Below, one piece after another: positions 1-25,410 of a stretch of 64,000 nucleotides of DNA. Made by a program: the position numbers and the translations under genes. The notes below the pieces were generated by a model. It was not told where the DNA came from and did not search any database. It was given only the letters and a program-made list of their open reading frames with translations. The stretch comes from Conus ventricosus (Eukaryota; Mollusca; Gastropoda; Neogastropoda; Conidae): NCBI GenBank assembly GCA_018398815.1, contig JAFLJL010014772.1, forward strand, positions 23,465-87,464, read 5' to 3'. The first letter of the stretch is position 1. The number at the start of each line of letters is the position of its first letter.

Positions 1-98
1 TGTTTGGTTTTATGACTCCCCCGCCCTTTGGGTTAGCTTTTTTATTGCTGTTGGGGTTCCCTTTCCCAAAATCCTTTTTGGGGAATAAAAAATTTGGG
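1..98 (-). pseudogene. Polinton A integrase, N-terminal end (partial)
   Basis: The reverse strand corresponds to the first 30 or so codons of the integrase at 17505-17596 of Polinton B. The match is seen by aligning runs such as TATTCAGCCAATATT and the AGCTTTTTTATTGCTG region. The rest of the gene is off the window. No intact frame can be read at this base quality. Confidence 0.5.
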
Positions 99-107
99 GT
101 TTATTTT

Positions 108-537
108 TATTCAGCCAATATTTTGTCAACAAAATACCGACGGTCATGCCAAAGACTAAAATAAACCCATTCTTGCATCCTTTTTTTTTTTGATGGTTTA
201 AAAAAAGTCGCTGGAATTTTTGGGGGGGGGCAAAGTTTCAATTGGTTTTTCCTTTTTACAAAAAAATTTTCTTGTATTGCCTGATCCCAAGTCTTTTTAA
301 AAATTTTTTAAACGCATTTTCCCTGTTTTTTTAGTTTGTTATTTTTTAAAAAAACTTAAATGCTCAATTTTCCCGCTTTTCATAGGGGATATTGTGCAGC
401 TGCTAGTTGCTCCATACTTTTTTTATGTCTTTTTTTCTCGCCGTCCCTCCCGCAGTTTACTAAACGTAATTACTTTCCCCTAAAAAACAAGCGCATTCAC
501 TACTGCGGGCCCCCTAACTTTATTAGAATGAAGCCAA
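108..537 (-). pseudogene. Polinton A small membrane/virion protein (noisy copy)
   Basis: Counterpart of the 17604-18007 gene of Polinton B. The start region (around 520-537) and the end next to the integrase start are both recognisable, and the divergence is dominated by homopolymer overcalls. The function is unassigned; see the better copy for the hydrophobic N-terminus. Confidence 0.5.
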
Positions 538-559
538 TTTTTTTAAAAGTATTTTTTTA

Positions 560-800
560 ATTTTTCATATGATACTGTAAGGGAATTTTTCCTTCTTTAA
601 ATAGAAAAACTTTTTCAGCAAATGAAAAGGTATAACAGCAATCAGCTTTGCAAATCCTCAAAGCCTAGCTTGCCAAAATCGGCTGGGTTTTAATTTTTTT
701 AAAAAGCTTTTACCAACATTTGTGTATCCTACACTAAGGCCTCCAATAACAGCTGAAAGGTTTAAAAAAGGTTTGGGAACAGTTTTTTTTTTGGGGCTAA
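560..800 (-). pseudogene. Polinton A small conserved protein (noisy copy)
   Basis: Counterpart of the 18031-18260 frame in Polinton B. Shared blocks include GCAAATGAAAAGG-type and CTCCAATAACAGCTGAA stretches at 620-760. No intact frame. Confidence 0.45.
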
Positions 801-837
801 ATTTTTAAAAAATAAAAAAAATTTAATTAATAAAAAC

Positions 838-1350
838 ATGAACTGATGTTTTACTACAAGGCGCCAAAACCCTTTCCCCCCCTTTTATTCAAATGACACA
901 TTTTAGACCAACTATTATGCCCCAAAAAAGGGAAAAACTGGGATTCTTTGGGGAGCATGTTTTTAAAAAAAAACAGTTCCTCCGGGAAAGAAATTTTGCA
1001 TAGAACAAATTCAAAAAGATGTCGCCACAAACATGGGGAAAATATCAAAAACCGGTATGAAGCGAAAAAGGGGGTCAAGAATGGGAAAAAGCGTCGGGCA
1101 AAAGGCTCTTAAATTTGTACAATAAAAAAAGTTAAATAGATTTGGGTCCTATTGTTTGAACAAGGCTTTATGTAAAATTTTTTAAAGCAGGATCCGTTTT
1201 AAAAAAAAAGTCATTAGAGTCTCTAGGAAAGGATTTGTATTTAAAAATTTGGAACCTTATTGTCGCCCCAAAACATGGGGTTAAAATTTCTTTTAATCAT
1301 ATAGATTTTTTTTCTCTTAAACTGACCCCCAAACCAGAAAATCACAGGGA
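838..1350 (+). pseudogene. Polinton A plus-strand conserved frame (noisy copy)
   Basis: Counterpart of 18297-18805 in Polinton B, with a shared ATGAAC start region and shared blocks through AAGTCATTAGAGTCTCTAGGA. It runs divergently from the minus-strand genes on its left, as in B. The frame is broken many times by noise. Confidence 0.45.
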
Positions 1351-1680
1351 AACAGGGAAAAAAATTTTAAAAGGTGGGGGAAAATGACCCGTAAAAACCG
1401 GGGGGCGTTAGCAGGAAACAAAATTTTTCAGAGTGGAACAAAAAAAAAATTAAAATTTCAGTTTCAAAACACAAATTACGCCCCCTAATCATGGGATTAA
1501 TTTCTTTTTTAAACCCTATAGATTTTTTTTTCCCTTTTAAAAAAAGACGAGCCAGAAAATCAGCAAAAATCAGAAAACATTGACCCAAGTGGAGAAAGTG
1601 GGCAGTAAAAAGCCTGGGGGCGTTGCACAGGAAAAAAATTTGAGAGTGGAACAAAGAAAAAAATTACAGTTTCAATCAAA
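1275..1680 (+). repeat. Direct duplication of about 210 bp in Polinton A
   Basis: The block beginning CATGGGGTTAAAATTTC near 1275 recurs from CATGGGATTAATTTC near 1492. Both copies run through a T-rich tract, an AGAAAATCA block, and GGAACAAA near 1435 and 1650. Polinton B has a single version at 18718-18935. The unit covers the end of one plus-strand frame and the acidic frame that follows. Confidence 0.55.
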
Positions 1681-2109
1681 AAATTTTGGTTTTTATAAAG
1701 AAAAAATGCTAGAGCCGCAGCCATTGTTTCAATGCCGGCTATAAAAAACGACAAAACAAGTTTATTTTAAGGCCTACAACCCAAATGGGGTTTCCTACAC
1801 CCCAAAAATTTCATATTTTTTTAAAGCAATTGTCATTTTTGGCGGCATTGCTTAAACTTAAATGTTGGGGGCGGGTTTTTACGGTTTAAAATAATAAAAA
1901 CAAAGAAACAAAAACCAAAACTTCCAAAAAAAACTCAAACCCCTAAATTTCAGAAGGGCGAAAAACAAAAGATGCAACCCCAAACCCAAAAAAAAGTTCT
2001 TTTTACCATTTCGATGCAATAACACTTTAAAAACTTTTAAAAAATAATTATAAGTTTTCCCTTTAAAAAGAAAATTTGGTTTTACTTAGGGGGTAACTTT
2101 GTTATGAAC

Positions 2110-2280
2110 CCTTTAGGTGACTTTTAAAACGGGGGGGGGGGGCCTTTTTTTGGGTCAAGAACTTATTAAGAAATTGAGGTACCCTTTATTAAGAAATTAA
2201 ATTAAAAAACTTGGTAAAAATTAAAAACTTAACTAAGAACTTAGGGGGGACTTTTTAAGGCGACTTGATCAAGAAAATTA
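2110..2280 (+). repeat. Polinton subterminal array, left piece
   Basis: Degenerate copies of the ACTTGAGGTGACTTGATTAA-type unit, read here as TTAGGTGACTT, AACTTAACTAAGAACTT and GGCGACTTGATCAAGAA. The same array occurs at 19500-19690 in Polinton B and resumes at 24058-24235. It is rich in TTAA, the piggyBac target, and the piggyBac insertion splits it. Confidence 0.65.
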
Positions 2281-2329
2281 TTAACCCCTTCCCTCCACCG
2301 TTTAAGTGGCCTTTTTTTTGTTTTTGCTG

Positions 2330-3285
2330 TGTGCCGGGGCCCCAAATTTTTCTTTTTGCAGTAGGGTTTACTTCTGTTCCACTACTCATTCATTTATTGA
2401 ATTTCTCTTAATTTTTTGAAGTTTTTTTCTTTTCACCCTGTGCTATGAAGTGGCGTCCCTAAAAATTTGATTTGGTGGTCATAAGTTGATAAAAATCAAT
2501 ATAATCAAACCCTTTTTTAAAAAATTTAACACTTTTCTGCATAGCACACATTTTGCAGCACCCTCAAACCAAAGAGAAAAATGAAAAAAATGGGGATTTT
2601 TTTGGGCGGGAAAATTTTCCAAAAATCCCGGTATTCATTTACTGCCAGCAAATGTTTTTTTGTGTGGTAAAAACAAAGCATAATTAGGGGTTTCCCCAAT
2701 TCCCGGGGAAAGGGACAGAATTTTGTTTAGTGGTTTGGGTTTACTAATCTGTTCAAAAACTCATTATTTTTGGGGATTTTTCTTAGATTTTATGCATGAT
2801 TCTTTTTAGTGCCTGGTTATAAAGAGAAAATTTTAAATATTTTTTATTCTGTTTCCAAATTTTTGGGAAAAAGTATTATGATAAACCCTTTTTTAATAAA
2901 AATTTTTGGGTTTTTAACATAAAAAACACACATTGAAAACCATTTAAAACCCCACAAAAAAATGAAAAAAAAATGGGTGTTTGTATTGGGGTGAGCAAAC
3001 ATTTCCAAAAAAATCGGGATTGAACAATTTCCCAAACAAAAGTTCTTTTTTTCCATACATGCATCACTGGGGGTTTTCCCCCCCCAAATTTTGGAGTAAA
3101 GGGAAGGACGCCCCAGTAGGCCGATCTTCCATTGAAAACCCATCAAACCCAACAAAACAAGGAAAAAAAAGGGTGTTTGTATTGGCTGAGCATCATACAA
3201 ACATCTGGTATTGATATCATTCCAATCAAATGTTCTTTATGTGCTAATACATGCATCACTGGGGTTACCCCAATTCAGGAGTAAA
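2330..3285 (+). repeat. PB1 370 bp tandem repeat, noisy portion
   Basis: About two and a half units of the repeat seen cleanly at 4849-6186. Landmarks are GCAGTAGGGTTTACTT, CTACTCATTCATTTATTGA, the TGCCAGCAAATG block and CCCCAATTC. The last 199 bp (2931-3129) are repeated as clean sequence at 3130-3316, which looks like an unmerged assembly overlap. Confidence 0.7.
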
Positions 3286-4650
3286 GGGAAGGACGCCCTA
3301 GTAGTGCCGATCTTCAAAAAGGGAGATCGCCACCAGCCAGCAAACTACAGGCCTGTGTCCCTCACGTCGATAATGTGCAAGCTCCTCGAGCACATCATAC
3401 ATAGCAGCGTCATGCAACACCTTGACAGCTTCAACATCCTCACAGACGTACAGCATGGATTCAGGAAATACAGTCATGCGAAACCCAACTTATAGAGACC
3501 GTCCACGACATCGAAAAAAAACCTTGCTGCTAAAGGCCAAACAGACGCAATCTTGTTGGACTTCAGCAAGGCCTTCGACAAGGTGCCACATCAGCGACTC
3601 ATGCACAAACTTGAGGCCTACGGAGTCAGAGGAAACACACATAATGGATCAAATCGTTTTTGACAGGGAGAACACAAAAAGTAGCACTTGAGGGTGTATA
3701 TTCAGCTACCACCCCAGTAACATCAGGAGTACCCCAAGCACTGTTCTTGGACCGCTACTTTTCCTATTGTACATCAACGACCTTCCTGATGTCGTGAAAC
3801 ACGCAAAAGTAAAACTTTTCGCAGACGACAGCCTTCTTTACAAGCAAATTAAAGGAATCCAAAGACCAGAGACTACTCCAAAAAGACCTGGACGCACTTG
3901 AAGGCTGGGAAGAAATGTGGCAAATGAACTTTAACCCCAGTAAATGCAACATCATCCGCATCCTAGCAGACAAGAATAAACCACCGCTAGTGTCCGACTA
4001 CCACCTCCATGGACAGGCTCTAGAGATGACCAAAGAAAGCAAATACCTGGGAGTTACCATATCAGATGACCTAACATGGACCAGCCACATCAAAAACATC
4101 ACCGCAAAAGGAAACAAAACAGTGGCTTCTTGAGGCGCAACTTTAAAGAATGTACAACAAAAGTTAAAGCAGCAACCTATACCACCATGGTGCGCCCCAC
4201 ATTAGAATACGCGTCAACGGTGTGGGACCCACACGAAGAGAAGGACAAGAAATCACTCGAAGCTGTCCAAAGAAGAGCAGCCAGATACACCCACAACAAC
4301 TACTTTGAAAGAACACCCGGCATTATCACCAATATACTCAACACCTTAGGATGGGAGTCATTGGAAGAAAGAAGAACAAAGAATAGACTAATGATGCTGT
4401 ACAAGGTCAAGCACAATCTTGTTGGAATCTCACCTGCAAACTACATCAGGGACTCTGACCCAAGAACAAGAGGAGCAAGGCTATACCAACAACAGGATTT
4501 CCACAAGGCAATAAACAACACCTTCTTCCCGAGGACAACCTCAGACTGGAACAGCCTCCCCACCTCTACGACATCAGCAACGTCACTGGGGATGTTCCGC
4601 TCACGACTCGGTGGCAGCAGGGCTCTGCAGCCACTTGTGAGCACCCCATG
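3286..4650 (+). pseudogene. LINE 1 reverse transcriptase (truncated, frameshifted)
   Basis: The translated plus strand shows reverse transcriptase landmarks in order: VPIFKKGDRHQPANYRPVSL at 3303-3362, a QHGFRK stretch near 3450, the catalytic FADDSLLY around 3819-3842, NPSKCN near 3933, YLGVTISDDL near 4045, and the C-terminal VRPTLEYASTVWDPH at about 4189-4233 with VQRRAARY. At least three frame changes separate these blocks (near 3490, 3850 and 4130), so no functional product is expected. The last 190 codons are open. The endonuclease and the N-terminal part are missing because of 5' truncation, which is normal for LINE insertions. Confidence 0.8.
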
Positions 4651-4654
4651 ACCC

Positions 4655-4753
4655 TCCCTACTGCCCTGTACATAGTTTTAATTCCCCCCCCCCCCCCCCC
4701 CCACCAACCTACTGCCCTGTACATAGTTTTAATTCCCCCCCCCCCCCCCCCCA
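4655..4753 (+). repeat. Doubled LINE 1 3' segment with poly-C tracts
   Basis: The 22-base run CCTACTGCCCTGTACATAGTTT plus TAATT, followed by a tract of 15-19 C, occurs twice in tandem, after 4657 and after 4708. Both lie in the 3' UTR just past the ORF2 stop. Confidence 0.8.
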
Positions 4754-4848
4754 AACCTAGCTCCCGCGGCCGGAATCAACGATACGTCACCGCAGGCCAC
4801 TTACGTTCAGAAATGAACCCGCCCCTTTCAGAGAGAAAAGAAAAGAAG

Positions 4849-6186
4849 GGACAGAATTTTGATTTTGTGGTAGGTTCACGTATCTGTTCACTACTCATTC
4901 ATTTATTGAGATATCTGTTAGATAGTTTGCAGTTGTCCTCCTAATAGCATGAGGTATTATTGGTATCATAATATTTTGATTTGGTGGCACTAGTATAGTA
5001 AAAAGTAACACAATCAACATGTTTTTGTTATAAAATGACAGTGTTCGAGCACACACTACACACTGCAACACATCAAACCACACAACACATACAAAAAATT
5101 GTTTCAGTATTGCCTGAACATCATACAAACATCTGGTAATGATATCATTGCCAGCAAATCATCTTCTGTGTGGTAATACATACATCTTTGGGGGTACCCC
5201 AATCCCAGGGTAAAGGGACAGAATTCTGCTTTTGACAGTAGGTTCACTCATCTGTTCACTACTCATTCATTTATTGAGATATCTCTTAGATTGTTTGCAT
5301 GTTTTTCCCTTATACCTTGTGGCATGATGTTGATGTCATTACATTTTGATTTTGTTGATAAGTAATATGGCAAAAAGTAACATAACCAACTTTTTTAGTA
5401 ATGAAATGACTGTTTTTGGGCACACACACATACATTGCAGCTCATCAAACCATACAAAACATGGAAAAAAAATTTGGTGTTAGTATTGATTGGACATCAT
5501 ACAAACATCTGGTATTGGTATCATTGCCAGCAAATCATCTTCTGTGTGGTAATACATACATCTTTGGGGTACCCCAATCCAGGGTAAAGGGACGAGAATT
5601 CTGCTTTGACAGTAGGTTCACTCATCTGTTCACTACTCATTCATTTATTGAGATATCTCTTAGATTGTTTGCATGTTTTTCCCCTTATGCCTTGTGGCAT
5701 GATGTGATGTCATTACATTTTGATTTGTTGATAAGTAATATGGCAAAAAGCAACATAACCAACTTTTTTAGTAATGAAATGACTGTTTTGGGGCACACAC
5801 ACATACATTGCAGCTCATCAAACCATACAAAACTTGAAAAAAATGATGTTAGAATTGACTGAACATAATATAAACATCTGGCATTGATATGAATGCCAGC
5901 AAAGTCTGTTCTGTGTGATAATACATACATATATCATTGTAGGTACCATAATCACGACATAAAGGACCAAATTTTGCCTTTTGCAGTAGGTTTACTAATG
6001 TGATCACTACTGACTCATTTACTCAGACAAGTCTTACATCTTTTGCATGTTTTTTTCTTGCATCTTGGCTATAACCTGATGTACTAATAATCAGATTTTG
6101 TTAGTAAACAGTAAAATTTGATGAAATCAAATCTCATGACAGTTTCAAAAGAAAAACAGTCATATTGCTGTATATAAAACCACACA
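4849..6186 (+). repeat. PB1 tandem repeat, about 370 bp units, clean portion
   Basis: Unit starts, marked by the GGGACAGAATT / GGACCAAATTTTGCC block, fall near 4851, 5218, 5590 and 5963, giving a period of about 367-373 bp. Each unit contains CTGTTCACTACTCATTCATT, GATATCTCTTAGATTGTTTGC, AAACATCTGGTA and TTTGGGGTACCCCAATC. Polinton B cuts the fourth unit at 6186, and the unit resumes at 21843. Open frames across this array are by-products of the repeat and not genes. The same repeat family sits at the 3' end of a second piggyBac copy (32480-33009), so it belongs to the transposon. Confidence 0.85.
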
Positions 6187-6322
6187 AGAGAACAGTATTT
6201 TACCAATCCTGGCTCACTTTCGCGATCAACCAGTTTTCGGGCGAAAGTGGCCTAAAAGCCGCCTTTTTCTGTTCTCTGACAAGTAACCAAAAAATAACGA
6301 TTTTCTACAAACAAACATACTG
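6187..6322 (+). repeat. Polinton B left terminal inverted repeat
   Basis: Matches the reverse complement of 21708-21842 with only about four single-base length differences. Its outer 91 bases (6187-6277) form a terminal palindrome: AGAGAACAG pairs with CTGTTCTCT, and CACTTTCGC pairs with GCGAAAGTG further in. The inner 18 bases contain the last five codons and the stop of the packaging ATPase. Confidence 0.9.
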
Positions 6323-6916
6323 TGTAGGGTTATCCGTTTTTAATACTAATTTACAAAACTTTTCAGATTTTAGTTTTTGTTTAATCCTATGTTTTTCTTG
6401 ATCGTTTTCAATAACATCATTTTCGCGCAAACATTCTTCAAATGAGTCTCTGTCTTTCATGTGAAATAACACTACAGTCTTTAACTGTTCTCTAAAGTCT
6501 TTTAAAACTGAGTTATATTTTTGACATAAAATCCACACACTTATCCCAGCATGTCTTCCACTGAAAGCCAGTTTTGACAAAGTGTTTCTCTTTTTAACTA
6601 TGTCTTTTTCTGCTGAACAGTCATCTATAATAAATAGCGTTTGCGTTCCCTCAAACAATATAAAAAAGCGTTCTAGACATTCACTCAGTTTATTGCTGGG
6701 GTCAACTAAAAAAATGTTATCATCTGCCCATATAAACCTTCTATCATGATATGCTTTGTTCCATTTAAGTGTTGGACAGAAAACCGCAATATGATCAAAA
6801 TTATAACGATAAACTGTTTGTAACAGGTCGAGGATAAATATTGTTTTTCCACAACCAGTCTGCCCACAAATCAATGAGCAATGAGGAGTTTTTGTCATAA
6901 AGTTTAACTGCTCCAT
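6305..6916 (-). CDS. Polinton packaging ATPase (A32/FtsK-HerA type)
   Basis: The product is expected to drive genome packaging into the virion, as in the A32-like ATPases of Polintons, virophages and large DNA viruses. The 203-residue frame is intact. It has a P-loop GQTGCGKT at about residues 18-25 and a hydrophobic strand ending in acidic residues, LFIIDD, near 93-98 (Walker B). A QKYNSVLKDFREQ segment follows in the sensor region. The start used here is the first Met of a clean frame just before the P-loop, and the length fits a minimal ATPase of this group. It lies 16 bp downstream of the capsid-region gene on the same strand, so the two are probably co-transcribed. The stop codon lies inside the terminal inverted repeat. 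A 31-codon relic of the homologous gene of Polinton A is at 25221-25316. Confidence 0.9.
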   Translation of the reverse strand: MEQLNFMTKTPHCSLICGQTGCGKTIFILDLLQTVYRYNFDHIAVFCPTLKWNKAYHDRRFIWADDNIFLVDPSNKLSECLERFFILFEGTQTLFIIDDCSAEKDIVKKRNTLSKLAFSGRHAGISVWILCQKYNSVLKDFREQLKTVVLFHMKDRDSFEECLRENDVIENDQEKHRIKQKLKSEKFCKLVLKTDNPTQYVCL

Positions 6917-6932
6917 AGTTTTATAACAGAGT

Positions 6933-7790
6933 TTAATCTAATCCAGTTATTATTTTTATCATACTCTCCGTCAAAACTTGTTCAGTATAATAAAACCCTA
7001 TGAGGCCTAAATGTGTAAGATTAATCCAATTTAGTTCTGTAAGATTGTTTCTATTTAAGTCAACATTGATTTTGTTGCTTGTTGTTATGATCTTAATATC
7101 CTCGCCATTGTGAAGAACGACGACAACAACGTTAAGACGTTTAACGTCTAAGTTTTGCCAGCTAATATTAATTCCTTTTATAAGGTCATCACTAACGCCC
7201 ACAACCCCATCCCTCTCCACATCTTTAAAGACAGAAATTTCAAATATCATTGTGAACGTGTCTCCTAATTTTCTGCTTGGAAAGAACTGTAATTTTGTAG
7301 AAGCTTTTTTTACAACTGTTTCTTTTCTGTGGAGGATGTACTGTTTTTTCCCATATGGCGTTATTTCAATTTCTTTCCGACTATTGTCGTCCGGCATAAG
7401 ACTTACATGTAAAGGGCCAGAGTTGAATGCTTTTCTGAAACTTTTTTGGCGGCTAAAATATGTAAATGGGCTTATGAATTCAAATTTTATGTCCCATTCT
7501 AAATATGGTTCTAAGTGCCATTTGAGGTCAGGTTTTCGAACTATTTTATATTCATACTGGCCAACATTATTTGCCTCTAGATTGCGCAGTTGTTCTAGTT
7601 TAGGAAACTTTTTGTTGTCGCCAACCTCTTTGCGTTTATAATCACCATCTTTAGTGTACTCAAAACCATACAAAGCGCCTATTTCACCGTTCTGTTCAAA
7701 GTCCGCAACATCTGCAAGGTCTTTTAAAAATTCAAAAGGTTAAAAATTTAAAGGGGCGTAATGAACCCCTGTTTCTTCTGGCCCACGCGC
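6933..7790 (-). CDS. Polinton capsid-region protein (penton/minor capsid candidate), partial
   Basis: The frame is clean from 7673 down to the stop at 6933 (246 codons), but the Met at 7673 is probably internal, because matching coding sequence continues upstream past 7730 into noisy sequence. The protein is rich in beta-prone segments (for example FEFISPFTYFSR and TFTMIFEISVF) with no transmembrane segment or signal peptide. It lies immediately upstream of the packaging ATPase, where Polintons and virophage-like elements keep capsid genes. I recognise no catalytic motif. Assignment to the minor capsid protein (penton) is by position and general character only; the C-terminal part of a major capsid protein is the alternative. 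A structural prediction showing a jelly-roll would settle it. Confidence 0.5.
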
Positions 7791-10700
7791 ATTTTTTTTA
7801 GAAACTATTTTTTTTATTTCCAAAAAAATTTTTTCGGGTTATCACATTTCAAAATTTTTCCCCCTTTTTGGGTTTTTGATTTTTTTTTAAAATTTGACCC
7901 CACCCCCACAAACAAATTTTTTAAACTGTAAATTAGGGAAATTGTATAATTTCAAAATTTCGCAAAAACAGCTTTCCCTGACGGAAACTTTTAAAAACAT
8001 TTGAGGGTCCATCATATAAGTTTCATAAAGGCTTAGCCACCAAATGAATATAGAGTAATAATTTGCAAAACGAGGGGATTTTTCCCCTCATAAGTATTTG
8101 TTTGCTGCAACTCAAAAACTAGAACGGCAGTTTGGGTATTTTTTTTTTTTTTTTTAAAAAGAAAAAATTTTTAGCTACCTTTATAAAAAAGGGTTAACCT
8201 ACTTCTTCTTCTTAAAGGTTTAAAGGGCCCAACATTTTTTTTTAAGTTTTGCTTTTTTAATTTTTGAGACAAGGGTTGTTTTTTACTCAATCTTCTTTTA
8301 ACGAGAAAAAAACCCGTAATAACCATCAGGTAGGGTTAACTGCTAACAAATTTAGGCCTCTTTTATTAACTTTTCAATTTTAAATTATTCTCCTTGGCTT
8401 TGTTTTAATATTAAACCAACGACTTTGTAAAATATTTAAGAGCGAAACCTTTTTTGGGCCCCGCAATTGTTATCAAAACATTTCTAAAAACGAAGGACTG
8501 CGGGGGGGGGGTTTTTGTTACAAAATTTTTAAAAAAAAATTAAAAATGGGCATTCAAATATACTGGCGCAAAAATTTTCTTTTGGGGCCGCACTAAAAAT
8601 TTTAAAAAATATAGAAAACTGAACTCAAACTTTCCCCTGTGCCCAGACTGCCTCTTTTCAAAAAAAGGTGAGTACCCCCCAATGAAGAGCTATTTTAAAA
8701 CCCCCCTATTAAAAACGACCACATCAAGAAACGTGGTTTAGCCCATCCGATGCTTTTTAAAATAAAACCCAAATTTAAAATTTTTTGCTGTGTTTTGCGC
8801 TCAACTTTTTTGTGGGGGGGAATGCTGATCTTTTAAACACCAACCCTTTTTTAGGTCATGTACAGATTTCATTTTTTTTAAACACCTTAAACGTATTTTG
8901 CTGAATTGAAGCCCCAAATAAAAAATGACAAACCTTTTTAAATCCACCCCCAGCAACAAAATAACATAAGGGGTTTTTTTGAAAGGATCTGTAACAAATT
9001 AAATTATTAACATCAACAGATTTTAGACAAAAGGGGAAATCATAATCAGGGCCGGGCCGACCTTTTTTTTTTCCGGGAAAGGGCACAAAAAGTAAACTAT
9101 CGCATCCCCCTTTCCCAAAACTTTTTTTTCGGGCCCAACCCTTTTAAAAGGCCCGGGTCCCAACAGAAAGAGAATAAAACAGCAGGGACAACATTTACTT
9201 AGCACTTCAAAGGGGCCAACAAGAGCGGAATAGAACGAAAAACACTCTTTTTCTACAAAACGTTTGGGGGGTTTGCTGGGTTCGAAACACGGCGAGATGA
9301 CATAACTGATCTTTCTACGCTTTGACGCACAAAAAAAATTTAATTAGAAATTTTAAGGGGACGCCTTTAAATTTCTACATTGATTTACCTTCCCAATTTT
9401 TAAAAGGAAAACCAACAGGGTTTTACAATACCCAAGATGAAAGTAACTTTGCGTTGGAACGGGTTTTAAATACACCCGCCTTTTTAACCTCAACTCCAGA
9501 TAGGTACAAAAATTAAACAATAATAAAAAAAATTTCTTAAAGCAGCAATAAACAAAAGGGTTGGGGAAAAACGACAAAAATTTCCCGGGCCAGTAATATT
9601 AAAAACAAAAAAAAGAACGCCCAAGATTAAGTCACCCCAAATTCCCCCAAGTCCAAACCCCCAAATCATTGAAAGACTAAACAAAGCTCGCGGACTCTGT
9701 TCGCGAAGTAAAAAATAATGCCCAAAGAATATGAAAAACAGGCTTTTTCTGGTTTAAACTGGCCTGGGTTTATTTGGGGTTTTTAAATCTTACAAAAATT
9801 TAACCCAACTATTAAAAAAACAAATTCCCAAAGTCCCGGGCCAAAACCAACTATTTTTTCTTCAGAAACAAAACCCAAACCCTGACAATACTCCCCTAAC
9901 CCCAAAAAAAGCGCCCAAACCTTTTCCCCGCAAATTTTTTTTTTAAAAAACCCCAAATATCAACGGGTTTTTTTACCATTTTTTATCGGGCGGAGGCTAT
10001 GGCGGCGGGGTAATAATTTTGGCCCCGCCGCCTGTAATACCCAAACACCAATGTATTTAATTGAAAACCCCAAAGGCATTTTATAACGCTTCAAATGTAC
10101 CCTTCTCCTAAACAGTGTTCGTATTTTTTTCGGGGCCTAGTGTCGGGGCTTCAAATAAAATTTTTTCGATATTTCTCTTTTTCTTTTTCCTTGATTTTTG
10201 GGAAGGGGTCTCGTTAGTAGTCAGACCGTTCTAGCCCTTTCCCGTTTCTTTCTTTTTCCCAAGTTTTTTTAGTCTTTGTCTTTTTCTTTCTTTAAATCAC
10301 CCCAAACTTTGATCGCCCAGCCTCAACGTTTTTTTTCTTTTTTTTCTTTTTAATGCCCCCATATTTTAAACCTATTTTGTAAATTTTTTGTTAATTCCCC
10401 CTTTAAAGTTCCCAAAAAGCATAAAATAAAGGGGCCCTTTTCCGCAGGGGCCAGGGGGGGAGTCGTGTATAGTCTTTAATGCTTTTTTCCCTTCTAAAAA
10501 CTTTTTTCTGTTTTCCCAATTTGCTTTTATTTTTTCCATCTCCAAATGTTTTAAAATTTCCTTAAATTCCATTTTTTGTTTTTGGGTTTTAGCTTTTGGG
10601 GAGTTTCTGCGGGTGGGGTTTTGAATTTAGCAACCACCCTTATCAAATTTTTTTGGTTTTAAAATGAAAAAGGGGGCGTTTTTTAAAATCTTTCACACTG

Positions 10701-13700: not shown

Positions 13701-14299
13701 TTTCCGCAAGGCCGCATATAAACCCCAAAAAAAAGCAGAGAGAGTGGCTAACTACCCTTAAAAATCAAAGATCTTAACCCTTTTGGGGGTTCCTTTTCCC
13801 GTGATTAGACCAAATTTATTTATTTTAAAACAAAACAAACCAAAAACCGTCAATATTTTAAAAATGGGATGAGGAAAAAAAAAATCACGCCCCATTTAAA
13901 AATGTCTAAAAACAGCCCAACAAATTTCGAACCAGACAAAAATCATGTTTACTTAAATACTGATGTTTTCACCTGCAGGGCTACCGCATTACACATTGAT
14001 TCGAAAAAATGAAATTTAAAAAAATTTAGCATGCTTTAAAGAATGGCATTTAAAAAAGAATTCTGCAAAAATTTTTAAAAAGAATGCCATCTGTTTTTAA
14101 ACCGCAAGCCCAACCTAAAAACATTGTATCGCCCGTTGACTGTAAAACAGAACAATTACCCCCCCCCTGATCTAAAGTTTTGTTTTAAGAAAATGGAAAA
14201 AACTGCCCAAAATTCTCCATACTAATTTTCCCCAACTTCGATCGCTTATTTTCCTTATGAAGGCCCGCCACAAAAAAATTTTGAAAAAAAAGTCCCTTT
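7791..14299. other. Noisy interior of Polinton B, no gene resolved
   Basis: Homopolymer-inflated sequence with stops in all frames. By position this should hold the rest of the capsid genes, the maturation protease and the N-terminal half of the polymerase, but I could not confirm any motif for these. Short frames at 8856-9205 (minus), 9322-9516 (plus) and 10372-10572 (minus) look more protein-like than their surroundings, but I cannot assign them. Confidence 0.5.
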
Positions 14300-16600: not shown

Positions 16601-16691
16601 CGGTTTTTTTGTTTTAAACCAGAATTTTCAATGCATTTGTCATTATAGAACCTAAATTAAAATTTAAAACGGAAATGTGTCTTTGGGGGGA

Positions 16692-17596
16692 TTAACTGCA
16701 GTTCTCCTTTACAAAAATCTTTGGGCCCGGTTTTTTGTTGTTCATTTTTTCGGGAAATAATACACGGGGGATTCATTTTACAATTCTTTTTATTTCATAA
16801 GTCAACACTCCAAAAATGGATCTGTTGCCCTGATGCGAGTGTCCCCTTCTGCTTCCCCCGGTAAATAAAGGTACCTTACTTTCAAACCAAATGGTAATAG
16901 TTTGCCGGATGAAGTCTCTCCTTCAACAACATTTATTGTTTTTCTTTTGATTGCTTGTACTGCTTTAGCCCTTTAAATTCTTCATTATTCATTGCGCGCA
17001 AAACTGAGGCAGTCTTCTAACCCATTCTGTGTTGCGAGAGTTTCAATAAGCTCTCTGTGATACTGGTAGGAGAAAAGTCTTTCAGCTAACTGTTTGTTAA
17101 AGTTTTCAACTAAAGCCTGTGATCTGTGAACTCCCGAATGCCTCTTCTAATAGTAACTCTGTGTTTTAACAATAATTGATTCACTTGGCCTTTAAATTCT
17201 TTTCCATCGTCGACTTGAATCATGCGGGATAAGTTAGCGGGCCTCGTGGTATATCAGTTGTATGGCAACAGCAACAGCAAAGCACTCTTTTGTGTTAATG
17301 TTCCGCATCTTTGTATCTTGAAGCTATGTCAATGACTGTGAGTGCGTACTTAAATCTTTTTCGTCTAATCCTATCAGAGGGTAAATATAGAAGATCCATT
17401 TGATGAGTGTCGTCGTATTGTATTCACAAAGTGTGTCTCTGTATTCGTTTGGGCGCAGGTAAATAAATTTGCCAAATCGCTTGTTTAGATAACCATTCTT
17501 TTGCTGTTTGTTCACTGACTCCAGCTGCTTGGCTTAGCTTTTTAATGCTGCGATTCCCTTCCAATATCCTTTGGGCGAATAATAGATTTTGTTCAT
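16692..17596 (-). CDS. Polinton integrase (retroviral rve type), frame-broken
   Basis: The enzyme inserts the element into host DNA. It starts MNKIYYSPKGYWKG at 17596, the usual opening of this family, followed by a helix-turn-helix-like segment (KKLSQAAGVSEQTAKEWL) near 17545-17490. Catalytic residues can be located: Asp in TVIDIASR (codon at 17328-17330), Asp in VDDGKEF (about 17205-17213) and Glu in LVENF (17105-17107). The C-terminal motif VRYLYLPGEAEG near 16880-16845 is also typical. The frame changes several times (for example around 17450, 17270, 17140 and 16970). In otherwise clean sequence these could be residual base errors or real decay. It is convergent with the polymerase and 7 bp downstream of the small membrane protein gene. 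Confidence 0.8.
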
Positions 17597-17603
17597 TTTT
17601 TAT

Positions 17604-18007
17604 TCAGCCAATATTATGCGCAACAAAATACACAACGGCCATACCAACGACAATAAACCCGATTTCTTGCATCTTTTGTTTTTCTGATGGTGAAGAAGTC
17701 ACTGAATTTTGGTGGGGCAATGTCTCGATTGGTTTTGCCTGTTACAAGATAATATTGTTTTTATTGCTTGATCAACATTTTAAAAATGTGTAAGCTGCAT
17801 GCCCCTGTTTTTTCAGTGTGTCATTAATAAAATCTAACTGCTCAAGTCTCTGCTTTTCAAGGCGTCTTGTCAGCTGCTAGTTCTCCATAGCTTTTGTATG
17901 TCTTTTCTCGTCGCCGTCATCCCGCAGTTTACTAAATGCGAAATTACTTCCGCTAAAAGCAAGCGCATCACCACAGCGCCGCCTATCATTATTGCGAGTG
18001 AAGCCAT
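17604..18007 (-). CDS. Conserved small Polinton membrane/virion protein, frame-broken
   Basis: It starts MASLAIMIGGAVV at 18007, a short hydrophobic N-terminus, and continues through a charged coiled-coil-like middle (LTRRLEKQRLEQLDFIND) to a C-terminal hydrophobic segment (IGFIVVGMAVVYFVAHNI). The stop is at 17604-17606. This layout (N-terminal hydrophobic segment, basic helix, C-terminal membrane anchor) recurs in small proteins next to the integrase in many Polintons. A virion or membrane role is likely, but the biochemical function is unknown. At least two frame changes occur (near 17950-17880 and 17770). It is in the same orientation as the integrase, with a short gap. Confidence 0.6.
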
Positions 18008-18030
18008 TTTTTATAAATGTATTTTTTTTC

Positions 18031-18260
18031 TTACATATTTATATTGTCTGGAATTATTCCTTGCTTAACTAGAAAATCTTTCGTAGCAAACGAAGCTGCA
18101 ACAATAGCAATCAGCTTTGCTGAATCCTCAAGGTCTAGTTTGCCAAGATCTGCTGGTTTAATTCTTAACAGGCTTTTACCAAGCATTGAGTATCCTACAC
18201 TTAGTCCTCCAATAACAGCAGAATGGTATACAAGGTTGGTAACAGTTTTTCAGTGCTCAT
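18031..18260 (-). CDS. Small conserved Polinton protein with C-terminal helix, frame-broken
   Basis: It begins with ATG at 18258-18260 and ends at TAA 18031-18033, about 75 codons. The frame slips once, near 18215. The second part reads LLRIKPADLGKLDLEDSAKL then IAIVAASFATKDFLVKQGII, an alpha-helical, partly hydrophobic chain. A noisy homologue is at the same place in Polinton A. I do not know its function; a minor virion component is one option given its small hydrophobic neighbours. Confidence 0.5.
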
Positions 18261-18296
18261 TTTTATAAAATAAAATAATTATAATTATTAAAAAAC

Positions 18297-18805
18297 ATGA
18301 ACAGTGATGATCTCCTACAGCACAAGGCAGCCTAAACCTTCCTGAACTTATGAATGACCAAGTTGGAAGACCAAGCTATTAGCCCAAAAAGGAGAGGCTG
18401 TATTCTTTGGCAGCATGTGGGAAAACAAAACAGTTCCTCGGAACTGAATTCAGCATAGAACAGATTCAACAGATGTCGCCGCAAGACATTTTAAAGTATC
18501 ATAACAGGTATGAAGCGCAGCTGGGGTCTAGAATGGTGAAAAGTGTGGGCAAAACGTTCTTAGTTTGTACACTAAACTAGTCAGTAGATTTTGCTCCCAT
18601 TGATTCTGAACAAGATCTTACGTATGATTTAACGCAAGATCCAGTTTTAACAAAGTCATTAGAGTCTCTAGGATGTGATCTATACTACAGATTTGGAACA
18701 TTGTTATCGCCATTAATCATGGGATTAATAACTTTTAATCATATAGATTTTGTTTCCCTTCAAAATGAGCGAGCTGGAAAAATCATCAGAACCAGAAACA
18801 TTTGA
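18297..18805 (+). CDS. Conserved plus-strand Polinton frame, unknown function, frame-broken
   Basis: Divergent from the small minus-strand genes on its left. The readable blocks are IEQIQQMSPQDILKYHNRYE near 18448-18507 and, after a frame change near 18560, a segment around 18680-18760 that includes LYYRFGTLLSPLIMGLITF, a likely hydrophobic stretch. The same frame is in Polinton A at about 838-1350, so it is a stable part of this lineage. Not recognised beyond that. The stop at 18803-18805 overlaps the start of the next frame. Confidence 0.5.
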
Positions 18806-19012
18806 ATCAGGTGGAGAAAGTAACCAAGCCGAAAATCAGCAGAAAACACTGAATCTTGGTGGAGACCAGTGAAAAGCATCCTCATCCTGGCGTGTTAAAG
18901 CAGGAAAAATATTAGCAGAGTGGAACAGACAAAAAAAATTAATGTTACAGAATATGACTCACATGAAAACATAACACCGCCAACGCCAGAACAATTATTC
19001 AATGCCCGCTAA
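18765..19012 (+). CDS. Small acidic Polinton protein, frame-broken
   Basis: ATG at 18765 overlaps the end of the previous gene in another frame. It encodes an acidic, Ser/Glu-rich start (MSELEKSSEPETFESGGESN), then after a break near 18870 a helical block with AGKILAEWNRQKK, and after another near 18935 a Pro/Thr tail ending at TAA 19012. The total is about 82 residues. The corresponding region of Polinton A is tandemly duplicated. Function unknown. Confidence 0.4.
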
Positions 19013-19246
19013 AAAAACTCCATGTGATACAAGACCTACAGCACCAAAGTCATCATGAATATTGAACTTAAACATTGCCATTTTTGCGCCATTGCTGCAG
19101 GTGGGCAGTTATTACGGTTATAAAATATATCACACAATGGCAGCAGAAACAAAAGTCAATCAAAAAAATCTGAACCACTAAATACAGAAAAGACAACTGC
19201 ACGCCAAAACCGCCAACAACAAAAGATCATTTGACCCATTCAAATG
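19002..19246 (+). CDS. Small hydrophobic plus-strand frame
   Basis: ATG at 19002 overlaps the preceding stop. After a short basic start and a frame change near 19055 it reads IFAPLLQVGSYYGYKIYH, a possible membrane segment, then a Gln/Asn/Lys-rich tail. Its position in a tight overlapping run of small frames supports coding, but the evidence is weak. Confidence 0.28.
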
Positions 19247-19293
19247 AATAATATTTTAAGAACTTAATTTTAATTTTTTTATAAAAATAGATC

Positions 19294-19496
19294 ATGGCGT
19301 ATTATAAAATGATAAAGTCAATAAATAAAGACAGGAGTCTATAAAAGACATTTCCATAAACCAGAATTGTAATCAATCTTGCTTAGGATGTAAGGCCTTC
19401 ATAAGACAAGCAGAGAACGCTGAGCAAGACATCCTCAACGATGACGCGTTTTTTGAGGCGTGTGTATACTATATAGACATCTGCTATTTAAGATAA
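19294..19496 (+). CDS. Small Cys-rich frame unique to Polinton B
   Basis: ATG at 19294 opens MAYYKMIKSINKD. After one frame change near 19340 the chain continues with NQNCNQSCLGCKAFIRQ (a C-x3-C-x2-C cluster) and an acidic helix to TAA at 19494-19496, about 67 residues. The cluster could bind a metal. The matching place in Polinton A (about 2030-2110) lacks this block entirely. Unknown function. Confidence 0.35.
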
Positions 19497-19499
19497 AAA

Positions 19500-19690
19500 C
19501 ATAGATTGTATTTTTTTGATAATTAAAGATAACTTGAATACTTAAAGGATGACTTAGTTATGATCTGAGGTGACTTAATCAAGAACTTAGAAGTTACTTG
19601 ATCAAGAACATATTAGGAACTTGAAGTAACTTAATTAAAAACTTAATTAAGAACTTGGGTGACTTAATTAAAAACTTAATTAAGACTTGG
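19500..19690 (+). repeat. Polinton B subterminal TTAA-rich array
   Basis: Degenerate tandem units built from ACTTGAGGTGACTTGATTAA and AACTTAATTAAGA, shared with Polinton A at 2110-2280 and 24058-24235. No coding capacity. Confidence 0.75.
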
Positions 19691-19734
19691 GCGACTTGGG
19701 GTAGGAGTGTGTGTGGTGTACACAGGGGTGGGGT

Positions 19735-19895
19735 GGAGGACGTGCGTGCGTGGGGTGGGGGTGGGGGACGTGCGTGCGGGGTGGGGGACGTGCGTGCGTG
19801 GTGGGGGGGGGGACGTGCGTGCGTGGGGTGGGGGTGGGGGGACGTGCGTGCGTGGGTGGGGGTGGGGGACGTGCGTGCGTGTGTGTGCGCGCACC
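19735..19895 (+). repeat. GT/GC-rich minisatellite
   Basis: Six or so copies of a 20-27 bp unit with core GGGGGACGTGCGTGCGTG. All six frames stay open through it, which explains the long overlapping open frames here. It is G-rich on the plus strand, with runs of four or more G that could form quadruplexes. Confidence 0.85.
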
Positions 19896-20283
19896 TTGAT
19901 TATTTATAAGAACGAATGTTCAGAATATAATATAGTTATTATCAAAAAACAACAAAACAACAACAATAACAGCACACACGCACAAACATTTAAAAAATAA
20001 GGAAGTGCTTGCATAGGGAAATGGAAAGGGTTTATGGTTGGCGCTTAAGTGCCGTAAATTCAAGACGGCTGCCGGTCTCTCTGTCAACTGAAGATTATTC
20101 AAAGCAGCCACCAAGTGCATTTATCAAAAGCTTGATTTAATAAACAAGACAGTTGAATAAAGTACATTCTGTGGCCGCCCAAAGGCAGCCAAAAAAGTTG
20201 AAGCAGGACGTTGAAGCGAAGCAGTGAAGCCAGTAATCACAGCAATATATACAAAGTCATGAAGTGCTTGGTGGAAATTCAAG

Positions 20284-20505
20284 GCAGTCAACTCTAAACA
20301 AACCCGACCGCGTCCTGCATGAGCGTATCTAAAAATAGATCTTACGTCAGGGTAGGCCTGCAGTGGTCTTACAGTCGCGCGCACTGTTGCTAAAGCAGCC
20401 AACTCTAAACAACCCCGACCGCTCCTGCATGAGCGGTATCTAAAAATAGATCTTACGTCAGTGGTAGGACTGCAGTGGTCTTCAGTCGCGCGCACTGTTG
20501 CTAAA
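20284..20505 (+). repeat. Two tandem 111 bp units with promoter-like motifs
   Basis: Unit 1 is 20284-20394 and unit 2 is 20395-20505, nearly identical. Each holds CTAAAAATAG (a perfect MEF2-type A/T core), TTACGTCA (a CRE/ATF-like octamer) and GTCGCGCGCACTG. The motif names are by consensus match only; no function is shown. Confidence 0.8.
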
Positions 20506-20938
20506 ACGCCACACAAACAAACATGTATGACTAGGCTGTGACAGTTGAGGTTCAGCCTGGGAGGGAGGAGGGAGGGTGGGGAGAGCGCACGGGGAGAGGG
20601 GGAGGTGTTAAGGTCAACGGACAGAATAAGTGACACCAACCAGCCTTGCGTCGGCGGTGGTTATAGGATACCAAAGAATCGCAAATTATTGCGCCTTGAA
20701 AACCCCTCTAATCTGTCTATTCTTCTGACATCATCGTAACTTGTTGGTGCAGCAAAAGAAATGTTCTGAAATGAAAGGATGAATTTTGTACTTGTTCCAG
20801 CAAGAATATGCCTCTAGATGTCCCACTGTTCCTTCAAATGGCAGGCTGGGTATGAAATGGGTTTGTCTGGCATGCCACACTAAATATGTGCACCATGTCC
20901 TTGTTTTATGCCGGTCATGGTCCCTTTCAACTGAACAA

Positions 20939-21060
20939 GCACTGCAAAATAAACTGTAGGCTATATTGTACCAGGAAGTTTTGAACTATTTCTATGAAAA
21001 ACTGAAAGAGCACTGAAAGATAAACTGTATATTATACCAGGAAGTTCTGAACTGTTTCTA
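20939..21060 (+). repeat. Two tandem copies of a 60-70 bp unit
   Basis: GCACTG-AAAATAAACTGTA ... ACCAGGAAGTT-TGAACT is repeated from about 20939 and again from about 21010, with about 80 percent identity by eye. Confidence 0.65.
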
Positions 21061-21280
21061 AAAAATATCGAACAGATGTTGAACGTGAAGTCAAGCGGTT
21101 TGACAGTTCTTAGTTCTTGGAGCTCTTAACTGAGCTAATAACAATCCGACAAGAGAACAAGGCTCGCCACTCAATTTTCTTTGTCAAAAACTTTGCCATG
21201 GCCTCATGATAAACAATGTATTTTTCACAAGATCGGTCTGTTGATCGGAAAGTTTTCCTTGCGAAGATAACAACACTCAC

Positions 21281-21356
21281 CATTTCTTTGAGTAATATTA
21301 GTGCCACTTCCAGCACTGACAGAAGGCATTGAAACATCACTTCCCTGACTCGCCAT
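21281..21356 (-). CDS. Candidate host-type first exon inside Polinton B right arm
   Basis: On the minus strand an ATG at 21354-21356 in good context (AACATGGCG) opens MASQGSDVSMPSVSAGSGTN, a Ser/Gly-rich start. The frame reaches G|GTGAGTG at 21281/21280, a strong 5' splice donor. Upstream is CpG-containing, promoter-like sequence. I do not recognise the protein and see no second exon. It lies between the Polinton array and the right terminal repeat, so it could be captured cellular DNA. A chance donor is possible. Confidence 0.3.
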
Positions 21357-21480
21357 GTTTTTAACACACACAAGTTCTCTCTGAAACGTCTTTACAGCCC
21401 ACCGGTCGAATGTAAAATGGCGGCGGCTGTGTATGGTGGGCACAACACAAAGTGTCACGTGATTTAAAGCTCGGCACTTG
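21357..21480 (-). promoter_or_regulatory. Promoter-like segment upstream of candidate exon
   Basis: On the minus strand this contains TCACGTGA (an E-box palindrome) near 21456 and AAAATGGCGGC near 21419, the core favoured by YY1 close to animal transcription starts. No TATA box. Inferred from motifs only. Confidence 0.25.
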
Positions 21481-21707
21481 ATTTGATAAGAGGCTTATGC
21501 GCAGTAAACATGACTAGAACTGGCAAGCCGTCTCGTCATCGGGTGTGCGACCCGCGTGGTCTCGCAGCAGTTCCCTGCCGCACGAACCACTGTAACCTGA
21601 TACGCCCTGCCGCAACCACGAACCCTGAAATTAGGCCTGTGTGCACAGGTCTCGTCAAGCCATACATAATTCTAGATTTAAGCAGGATTTTTTACTTTAT
21701 GTTTGTT

Positions 21708-21842
21708 CAGTATGTTTGTTTGTAGAAAATCGTTATTTTTTGGTTACTTGTCAGAGAACAGAAAAAGGCGGCTTTTAGCCACTTTCGCCCGAAAACTGTT
21801 GATCGCGAAAGTGAGCCAGGAGTTGGTAAAATACTGTTCTCT
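21708..21842 (-). repeat. Polinton B right terminal inverted repeat
   Basis: Reverse complement of 6187-6322. It begins with the last five ATPase codons and the TAG (21723-21725), then runs through the terminal palindrome (21753-21842) to the CTGTTCTCT end. The PB1 repeat resumes at 21843 after ACACA. Confidence 0.9.
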
Positions 21843-21925
21843 ACACAAAACACAAGAAAAACTGATGTTAGTGTTCACTGGATGCGAGGAGAAACATCTG
21901 GTACTCACATCAGTACATGTCTGTA
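21843..21925 (+). repeat. Resumed PB1 repeat unit after Polinton B
   Basis: Blocks ACACAAAACACAAGAAAAACTG, ATGTTAGTGTTCACTGGA and AAACATCTGGTACT align with the part of the 370 bp unit that is missing at 6186. Similarity fades toward 21925. Confidence 0.75.
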
Positions 21926-22189
21926 AACTAATCCAACTTCTTTCTGTACATCTCGCAGGTTTCTGGGGTTGTTCTTGGGTTGAGCAGCCTCACTAATATA
22001 ACCCAGTCTGATTATTTCCACCAGTTGAACATTTTCAGAAGAAACACCACCATGAAGATGAAAAAAAGAAAAACACACAGGCACTCAAGAATATAAAAAC
22101 ACAGAGATAAAAGCACGCACTGGCTAACTGAAGAAGATCTATGAAAAAAAAAATGCACTGCAAAACTAAGCTGTGCTACAGGATCCACA

Positions 22190-22955
22190 CTACTCCCAGT
22201 GGTTGAACTTAGTGTGATAATCCATGTAGCACTGTGGATAGCACAGTGCAGGCTTGGAGGGACAGGAGGGGCAGTGGGACCGCACATCACGCCTGATCTT
22301 CAGCTTCTTGGTGCAGACCCTGCAGGCCCTCTGTGGTGCTGCCTTGTTGGGTGTTGGTGGGATGGGGAACATGAAATGCCTCTCCATCAGCCTCACTTCA
22401 TCGTTTGACCGGTAGCAGAGGTATAACTTGATCACGAACCTGACACGCTTGAGGGGGATGTATTGGCGAAATATAAGCCTACCCTTCCAAAGGAGTAGGC
22501 TTTCATCCACACACACCACTCACCGTGGCTCATACACCTCCTGAAATCTTTCATGGAGGTGGTCCAGTACTGGGCGGATCTTGTACAGCCGGTCATACTG
22601 GGGATGGTCTGGTGGTGGCATCGCAGAGTTGTGAAAGTGGATAAATTGTAGGATGATCTGAAATAGGATTGAAAACATTTGATCAGTGTGTGTAAACAAG
22701 CAAACACACACACACACACACACACCAGAAACAATCAAGTACACATACAAACATTTGTACACACACACACACACACACACACTCACACACACACACACAC
22801 ACACACATCATAAACAATGACACACAAATACACCACATAGAAGTATACACACATACACACCACATAGAAGCACACACATACACACACACACACACCATAA
22901 ACAATGACACATGAATACACCACATAGAAGCATACACACATACACACCACATAGA

Positions 22956-23007
<52 letters not shown>

Positions 23008-23065
23008 ACAGAAGCACACACACACATACACACAAAACAGAAGTGCACACACACACATTACAGAG

Positions 23066-23125
<60 letters not shown>

Positions 23126-23803: not shown

Positions 23804-23969
23804 CTTGATTATGATAATCAGCTCGACCCCACTTGGATACTAAACCGACAATTTACGAACACTTCAGTACACCGATAAAGGGATAGAACTCTTATTTAAA
23901 CACCCCAGTAGAGTCAGGGACAATTTCTAGGGTTATTTCCCGTACCGATTTTCGAAATTTCGATGACGA

Positions 23970-24057
23970 AGATACCCCGTAATAGACACGGTTACGGGCG
24001 TACAGGATCGCGGAAACGACCCCGTAATAGACACGGGGCAAGCAGGGAAGAGGTTAA
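23970..24057 (-). repeat. PB1 5' end with internal direct repeats
   Basis: On the minus strand the end reads TTAACCTCTTCCCTGC, followed by two copies of CCGTGTCTATTACGGGG (24036-24020 and 23991-23975). Paired subterminal motifs like this are common binding sites for transposases. Confidence 0.65.
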
Positions 24058-24235
24058 AAACTTGAGGTGACTTGATTAAGAACTTAATTAAAGAACTTGA
24101 GGTGACTTGATTAAAAACTTAACTAAGAACTTGAGGTGACTTAATTAAGAACTTAGAGGTTACTTGATTAAGAACTTAGAACGATTTGATAGCGACTTGA
24201 ATAAGAACCTATGGTGACTTGATAAAACTTAAAAT
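24058..24235 (+). repeat. Polinton A subterminal array, right piece
   Basis: Five or so degenerate units of AACTTGAGGTGACTTGATTA with AAGAACTTAATTAAAG spacers, directly abutting the PB1 end at 24057. Confidence 0.8.
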
Positions 24236-24880
24236 AAAAACACAATCCATTGTTACATTCTTTTTCCTTGGGGAGACAACTCCTCTTCTCTTATTCTAAA
24301 GGGTTGCTTTCCTTTGTGCGAACCCTTCAATTATTGGCTTACAAAATTGCAGAGCTGGGGGCGACGCATTTGTCACTTTACTAGTAGGCGACCAGCCAAC
24401 ACAAATCAGCCTGTGTCAAATTACACAAAATTACATAGCCAGGGCGGCGACGCGTGCCAGTAATCCAAAAATCTAAGTTTAGCCCCCTAATAATATGCCT
24501 GCGGAGTTTCCCCAATTAAATTTAGCCCTCCCCGCCCTCAAGTAATATTTTCACATTTTATGTATTAAAAGAAGCATTTTTATATTCAATCTAATAAAGT
24601 ATTTTAAATAAATTTTATTAAAAAGTAGTGACTAAAAAGTAAGGTAAGATGCACTTTGTTAACTAGCTTTTAATTTTGTTTTACAAAAATAAAAAACAAC
24701 TTTACACTAGGCAACTAGACACCATAGAATTGTAACGCTTTCTGTGTGCCGAGTATATATATAAATCTTAAATAAATAACATTGAGAATATGCCTGCGGT
24801 AGTTTTATATTCTTGTTTGTCATGGTATTGCAAAAGTCTAAGTTTGGCCCTTTTCCCTGCTCTTAAGTGATCTCTTCCCA

Positions 24881-24990
24881 TTTCGCGTTTGTATGTCTTT
24901 GGGTCACTGGCGTGGCCATGAACGCCCGTAAACCAATTTCGCGTTTGTATGTCTTGGGTCACTGGCGTGCCTATAAACGCCCGTCAACCC
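24881..24990 (+). repeat. Two tandem 56 bp units
   Basis: TTTCGCGTTTGTATGTCTT and GGGTCACTGGCGTG ... AACGCCCGT recur at a spacing of 56 bp. Confidence 0.8.
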
Positions 24991-25220
24991 AAATCTGGAA
25001 GAGTCACTAAAAAAGGGGTGAGGGGAATGCCCCAAATTAGAAAAATAGCGAGCAGGCAACCAAGTATGAAAGTATACTACTGTTGGAGGCATATTCTCAA
25101 AACCCTTCACATCTGGCTGTGTTATATGTGACCCTCTGGGTCTGGCTTGGCGCCATAGGGTCTCAAGTGAGATCCAGAGGTGATCAATAATGCGGCCAGA
25201 TGCAAAGAGTTTTGCATTAT

Positions 25221-25316
25221 CAGGAAAAACAAAGGATTAAAGAAAAACTACAATCTGAAAAGTTTAGTAAATTAGTATTGAAAACGGATAATCCTACACA
25301 GTATGTATGTTTGTAG
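25221..25316 (+). pseudogene. Packaging ATPase C-terminal relic in Polinton A right end
   Basis: 31 codons plus TAG, ending SKLVLKTDNPTQYVCL, close to the C-terminus of the 6305-6916 gene of B. It lies in the right-end inverted repeat position, so the terminal repeat of A reaches further into the ATPase gene than that of B. It cannot encode an ATPase. Confidence 0.85.
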
Positions 25317-25327
25317 GTTTACTTGTC

Positions 25328-25410
25328 AGAGAACAGTAAAATACCAATCCTAACTCACCCGGAGCGGGGTGAGGGCGGGGTGAGTTAGGATTGGTATTTT
25401 ACTGTTCTCT
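25328..25410 (+). repeat. Polinton A right terminal palindrome, perfect 33 bp arms
   Basis: 25328-25360 and 25378-25410 are exact reverse complements with a 17 base G-rich loop. The arm begins AGAGAACAGTAAAATACC, and the outer nine bases are the same as in Polinton B. It is taken as the element terminus by comparison with B. Confidence 0.9.

Follow-up and report, generated by a model that had tools for sequence, protein, structure and literature searches.

Models of Polinton (Maverick) replication and integration are drawn mainly from adenoviruses and phage phi29. The Polintons described here were found in a 64,000-nt stretch of the Conus ventricosus genome, hereafter the window (positions 23465–87464 of contig C9251, JAFLJL010014772.1, which is 87,464 nt long; assembly GCA_018398815.1), and the genome searched measures 3.52 Gb. 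In the window, Polinton A is split by a piggyBac, PB1, which itself holds a long interspersed nuclear element (LINE) and a complete second Polinton, B (Table 1). These elements resemble described Polintons in a length of about 15.7 kb, inverted repeats, a DNA polymerase (PolB) piece, a Pox_A32-type ATPase and duplications of 5–6 bp, but differ in their variable, self-pairing terminal hairpins and in that no integrase was found in the pieces scanned. Parvovirus ends also pair with themselves, but there were no flipped loops among the 37 ends studied here. Integron attC sites, in which structure is conserved, sequence varies and one strand is favoured, offer a further likeness; other enzymes are involved, and the comparison is an analogy only. 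As outlined in the cited texts, vertebrate Mavericks have the end motifs (AGT)2 or (AG)3 and 6-bp duplications (PMC8097293), and bidnaviruses, whose PolB is thought to have been acquired from a Polinton, have repeats reported not to form hairpins (PMC4061559). Teratorn, in the published outline a piggyBac–herpesvirus fusion, likewise combines a virus-like element with piggyBac DNA (PMC10175614), but is a co-mobile fusion, whereas the arrangement here is a nested insertion in 1 of 40 scored PB1 copies. Endogenous virophages and Polinton-like viruses are described as carrying nested retrotransposons (PMC12220804, PMC8547959), and so also have mobile elements inside endogenous virus-like elements; here the inserted element is a piggyBac, into which another Polinton has inserted in turn. 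Very probably, the nest was built by ordinary successive transposition, with the hairpin most likely acting in a single-stranded stage of replication.

The right end of Polinton A, placed at 25410 in the preliminary description and confirmed here, closes with a hairpin. When the genome was searched with this end, 40 places were scored from 2656 candidates, A included, and 38 of them had the landmark provided by the end of the ATPase gene (weak in L040). A complete terminal hairpin was present in 31 of these 38 ends, A among them, and six further ends were added from B, from L012 and L019, and from a third Polinton, C, that lies left of the window. The hairpins span 81–92 nt (68 nt in one) and combine a near-constant tip (AGAGAAC...GTTCTCT) with a variable stem and a mostly conserved loop, usually CGAAACTGGTTGAG. 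Over the variable core of 33 elements, arm identity was 0.843 within a copy versus 0.583 between copies, and the best of 10,000 permutations reached 0.667. The same 4-mer occupied positions 8–11 of both arms in 27 of the 33 elements, and 12 different inner 4-mers occurred.

Covariation was measured in a MAFFT alignment of 32 ends made without reference to structure, from which L007, having no loop, was left out. In this alignment 93.3% of cells pair, and 20 of the 30 stem pairs show changes on both sides. Cells changed on both sides numbered 148, against 48.6 ± 5.0 in shuffled alignments and at most 46 when the partners were slid; the covariation score was 0.435, against 0.165 ± 0.010 when shuffled and at most 0.091 when slid. 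The exact 18-nt loop occurs 1764 times genome-wide (reversed control, 0), and one stem class was found at 1177 sites (control, 0). In the 12 stem columns left free by the class pattern, complementarity was 0.868 over all 50 listed sites (permuted maximum, 0.622) and 0.841 over the 34 distinct ones (permuted maximum, 0.627). No earlier description of covarying terminal hairpins in Polintons was found among titles and abstract openings of the open literature, a search that left subscription journals mostly outside and did not take in the founding papers on Polintons.

Arms that stay complementary without conserving their sequence could be maintained by hairpin transfer, the rolling-hairpin process of parvoviruses and poxviruses, in which one arm is copied from the other. 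Hairpin transfer inverts the loop, giving flip and flop forms, but in the 37 ends the loop was forward in 33 and reverse in none, the remaining four having another loop or none. Moreover, the first 100 loop sites of the listing included 15 pairs of neighbours 14–30 kb apart, of which 13 faced outward (the remaining pairs were one ++ and one −−). These orientations make hairpin transfer an improbable source of the pairing.

Pairwise alignment of the arms in the 29 ends without mixed arms gave 24 G-T against 1 A-C. In 30 of 33 elements the inner-to-outer strand had the lower folding energy, and so folded more strongly, and in 2 it had the higher; with the loop replaced, this strand was still the stronger in 27 and the weaker in 5 with RNA parameters, and in 23 and 9, respectively, with DNA parameters. 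The G-T excess and the folding bias together favour the strand that has its 3′ end at the terminus as the one on which the hairpin acts, which suggests a role for this 3′-ended strand. The hairpin would act, as a structure and not as a sequence, on this strand during a single-stranded stage of protein-primed replication, where it may protect the end or let a trimmed 3′ end re-extend from its own inner arm. A more specific proposal is a Polinton lineage with structure-recognised ends, in which the hairpin of the 3′ strand is its own template and the inner arm serves to restore ends that have been trimmed; we put this forward tentatively and think that it probably goes too far. If true, self-templating would explain stems that drift between elements yet remain self-paired, the single loop orientation and the strand preference, and would suggest that Polintons go through a single-stranded intermediate in replication or integration.

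The main rival places the action of the hairpin in RNA, such as at the ATPase transcript's 3′ end, with the copy at the other end of the element arising by homogenisation of the inverted repeats. The hairpin of B lies 27 nt downstream of the ATPase stop codon, and the asymmetry is in favour of the sense strand of the ATPase gene and increases when RNA parameters are used. An RNA role does not predict, however, that in B, C, L012 and L019 the hairpin at either end stops exactly at the terminus, beside the duplicated target bases, and we regard it as rather unlikely. A covarying, strand-biased hairpin at 1000 or more sites is a natural data set for asking if Polintons have a single-stranded DNA stage and which features are recognised by their integrase or polymerase; the hairpins matter more than the nest.

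Large genomes often contain such nests, so that this one is of little importance by itself; its uses are exact empty sites and a lesson about unpolished sequence. It was tested by self-comparison, by whole-genome searches with some of its pieces and by reading the sequence left of the window. Along the contig the mean homopolymer run switches blockwise between about 1.4 and 1.6–2.0, and about half or more of the contig, including window positions 1–3000, 7500–17000, 34800–61000 and 62000–64000, is homopolymer-smeared. When long-run blocks were compared, most substitutions equalled the adjacent base; the smear, which probably marks unpolished sequence, raises apparent divergence and disrupts reading frames. 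In four comparisons of clean with clean sequence, the share of substitutions equal to a neighbour was 22–50%. The left part of A is 75.6% identical to B, with 80% of the substitutions neighbour-equal, and from such shares we estimate the real A–B substitution at about 5%. Clean stretches gave identities in line with this estimate (94.2% for B and C, 93.1% for C and the element that hosts it), and the sole short clean comparison of A with B, 139 columns at the terminus, was 82% identical with 16 columns of gaps. On these sequence comparisons A and B are distinct but close Polintons. The apparent A–B divergence of 25% was therefore not borne out: it looked too large because the contig is partly unpolished, and close relatives appeared far apart.

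The preliminary description had taken 1–2280 and 24058–25410 for the two sides of one Polinton. Seven A-related Polinton ends (L002–L008) were compared with the window, and in six of them the flanks matching the left and right parts of A adjoin each other with no PB1 between; in L005, the seventh, the match is confined to the array and the right side. The six uninterrupted relatives show that both parts belong to one kind of element, as described, and that PB1 sits within the TTAA-rich array of A. The possibility that 1–2280 is an assembly duplicate of 17505–19690 was ruled out, since 20% of the substitutions between them are of a kind other than smear, against 1% in the presumed artefactual duplicate discussed below. 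Adjoining A on the right, at 25507–25753, is a perfect 113-nt inverted repeat; similar sequence follows the disrupted Polinton end of L029.

The break in A could be read directly as bounded by TTAA, with inverted ends that match at 14 of 16 positions. A search with the last 361 bases of PB1 gave 348 candidates, of which 40 were scored, the window and 39 other copies that are 97–99% identical to it. All 40 match from the start of the query, and 39 stop at query positions 357–361 (window 24056–24060), within 3 nt of the TTAA end, with the remaining match stopping at 346, 12 nt short of it. Eleven other loci that were read share GAAGAGGTTAA and then pass into unrelated flanks; at the other end, four clean copies begin at TTAACCCCTTCCCTGCC, aligned to window 2281 in three and 2280 in one. 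With exact ends at a TTAA target and a transposase piece (DDE_Tnp_1_7), PB1 is a piggyBac, and a young one whose family was active recently. At 32474–32958 there are incomplete, inverted copies of the PB1 tandem unit, probably a second piggyBac remnant.

Within PB1, the repeat unit had been described as cut at 6186 and resuming at 21843, with ACACA on both sides of B. A search for PB1 copies at this site yielded 2780 candidates, 40 of which were scored; in all 39 other copies the PB1 match starts at 21843 (1–2 nt later in two) and B is absent. Five empty sites read AACCACACAAAACACAAG, so that ACACA, or ACACAA with one base lost, was duplicated, and the described junction stands. B is about 15.7 kb long, its inverted repeats (135–136 nt) are 97.8% identical, and its ATPase has 830 homologues at E ≤ 0.001. 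A virus-like element between piggyBac ends might also mean that PB1 and B are a composite that moves as one unit, as in Teratorn; yet B has its own ends and its own duplication, and a shared piggyBac–virus junction was present in none of the 39 other copies. On the copies scored the composite is rejected, and we consider it extremely improbable.

The LINE is recognised by reverse transcriptase, 5′ truncation and a short duplication: four collinear RVT_1 pieces, each under the Pfam cut-off, lie in frames across 3190–4130, and AAGGGA flanks the element on both sides. The earlier proposal that A came first, then PB1, then the LINE and B is supported by other copies in this genome: six of seven A relatives lacked PB1, five empty sites for B were found and the 39 other scored PB1 copies were without B. 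The place of the LINE in this order is indicated only by its position and short duplication. In this succession the integration of Polinton A would have been the first event; a piggyBac from a family active in recent times would then have entered a TTAA within the TTAA-rich array of A, and the LINE and Polinton B, about 5% diverged from A, would later have entered that piggyBac copy.

Several features of the contig invite the suspicion that the nest is an assembly artefact, its pieces misjoined in repeat-rich, unpolished sequence. Besides the extent of the smear, a 3-kb stretch left of the window is present twice in tandem (contig 15016–21184; L010, L011), and the second copy is smeared, differing from the clean one in 19% of columns; as 99% of the substitutions in it repeat an adjacent base, the likeliest reading is an assembly artefact. 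In addition, Polinton coordinates step back at contig 23024/23025, where two overlapping copies differ beyond smear, and the contig join that links C and its host to A is doubtful. A reading of contig 21953–23025 as an artefactual copy of the sequence after it is not supported, as the differences exceed smear (alignment noise there is large). Against misjoining, the nest junctions at 6187, 21843 and 24057 fall within clean stretches and match element ends or empty sites in other copies, the left end of PB1 is fixed by four copies, and the target duplications fit. An artefactual nest is therefore very unlikely.

Some observations weigh against successive transposition combined with a hairpin that acts in a single-stranded stage. 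The left PB1 junction, 2281, falls in unpolished sequence and is the least secure, since 1–2280 is smeared. No integrase was found in the open pieces scanned, large parts being smeared or broken. Seven of the 38 ends lack a complete hairpin (two enter runs of N, two have the inner arm only and three end otherwise), and both ends of B, as well as L026, L033 and L038, have arms of two types that mismatch mid-stem. Such stems mean that integration does not require perfect pairing of the hairpin and that re-templating cannot occur in every cycle; as the two ends of B share the same mismatched type, this state has probably passed through at least one integration. The strand asymmetry is weaker on the MAFFT alignment (42 G-T against 19 A-C over all 32 rows), and the pairwise count further comprised 46 gap columns and 38 mismatches of other kinds, G-G making up 24. 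Finally, the copies are related, and the counts are hence not of independent events.

Polinton C is complete, occupies contig 90–15985 (L009–L011) and is inverted relative to B. It interrupts another Polinton, represented by contig 1–89 and 15986 onward, with TGAAT on both sides. Terminal inverted repeats are present in B and in C (about 119 nt, 95.8% identity), and the target duplications measure 5 bp in both and 6 bp in L019 (AAAGTG) and L012 (GACATA); the opposite end was not found for 4 of 6 elements sought. A piece of C matches the DNA polymerase family phrog_1907 (1.1e-8), with no match to a Pfam polymerase family or a solved structure, and a polymerase piece belonging to the host element is encoded immediately to the right of C (DNA_pol_B_2, 1.7e-4, under the Pfam cut-off). 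PolB is assigned on these two matches, protein priming is predicted only and the homologue in B is smeared; the packaging ATPase is identified by Pox_A32. The pieces tried gave no capsid match in Pfam or PHROGs, and no relatives were found in viral contigs by the ATPase alone, an ATPase alignment or the loop pattern. The Polintons of this genome are one large family.

A preference of Polintons for inserting into Polintons is not claimed, as 0 of 31 flanks began in Polinton sequence with the search settings used for them. Under a different search setting, and under that one only, the Polinton end of L008 (contig C7322) is directly followed by Polinton-interior matches (65–77% identity); this lone case is possibly another Polinton within a Polinton. 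The flanks of L019 and L026 have a Polinton piece about 270–350 nt away.

Table 1. Features of the nest, in window coordinates.
Feature	Position	Strand	Remarks
Polinton A, left part	1–2280	+	Smeared; ends in TTAA-rich AACTTAATTAAGAACTTGAGGTG-type array
PB1, piggyBac	2281–24057	−	Bounded by TTAA on each side; about 4.6 kb of its own DNA, remainder LINE and Polinton B
PB1 internal tandem units of about 374 bp	2345–6186		Units interrupted by LINE
LINE, 5′-truncated	3292–4845	+	Collinear RVT_1 pieces; duplication of about 6 bp, AAGGGA; edges approximate
Polinton B, complete between ends	6187–21842	−	5-bp duplication ACACA; 7500–17000 smeared
B left terminal hairpin	6187–6277	−	Arms mismatched mid-stem
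B packaging ATPase, open frame of 203 aa	6305–6916	−	Pox_A32, 4.4e-16
B open frame of 246 aa	6933–7673	−	No confident family
B right terminal hairpin	21753–21842	+	Same mismatched type as left
PB1 transposase, C-terminal piece	22190–22519	−	DDE_Tnp_1_7, 6.4e-6; zf-Tnp_2
Polinton A, right part	24058–25410	+	Terminal region holds copy of ATPase gene 3′ end, about 25219–25316
A right terminal hairpin, 83 nt	25328–25410	+	

Two further features lie to the right of the nest. An open frame with an RVT_1 domain (6.9e-23) at 26312–26740 probably belongs to a further LINE. From 39200 to 64000, a large tandem repeat with units of about 5–6 kb and CTCTCACACATACACCC sub-arrays, mostly smeared, reaches the end of the contig.

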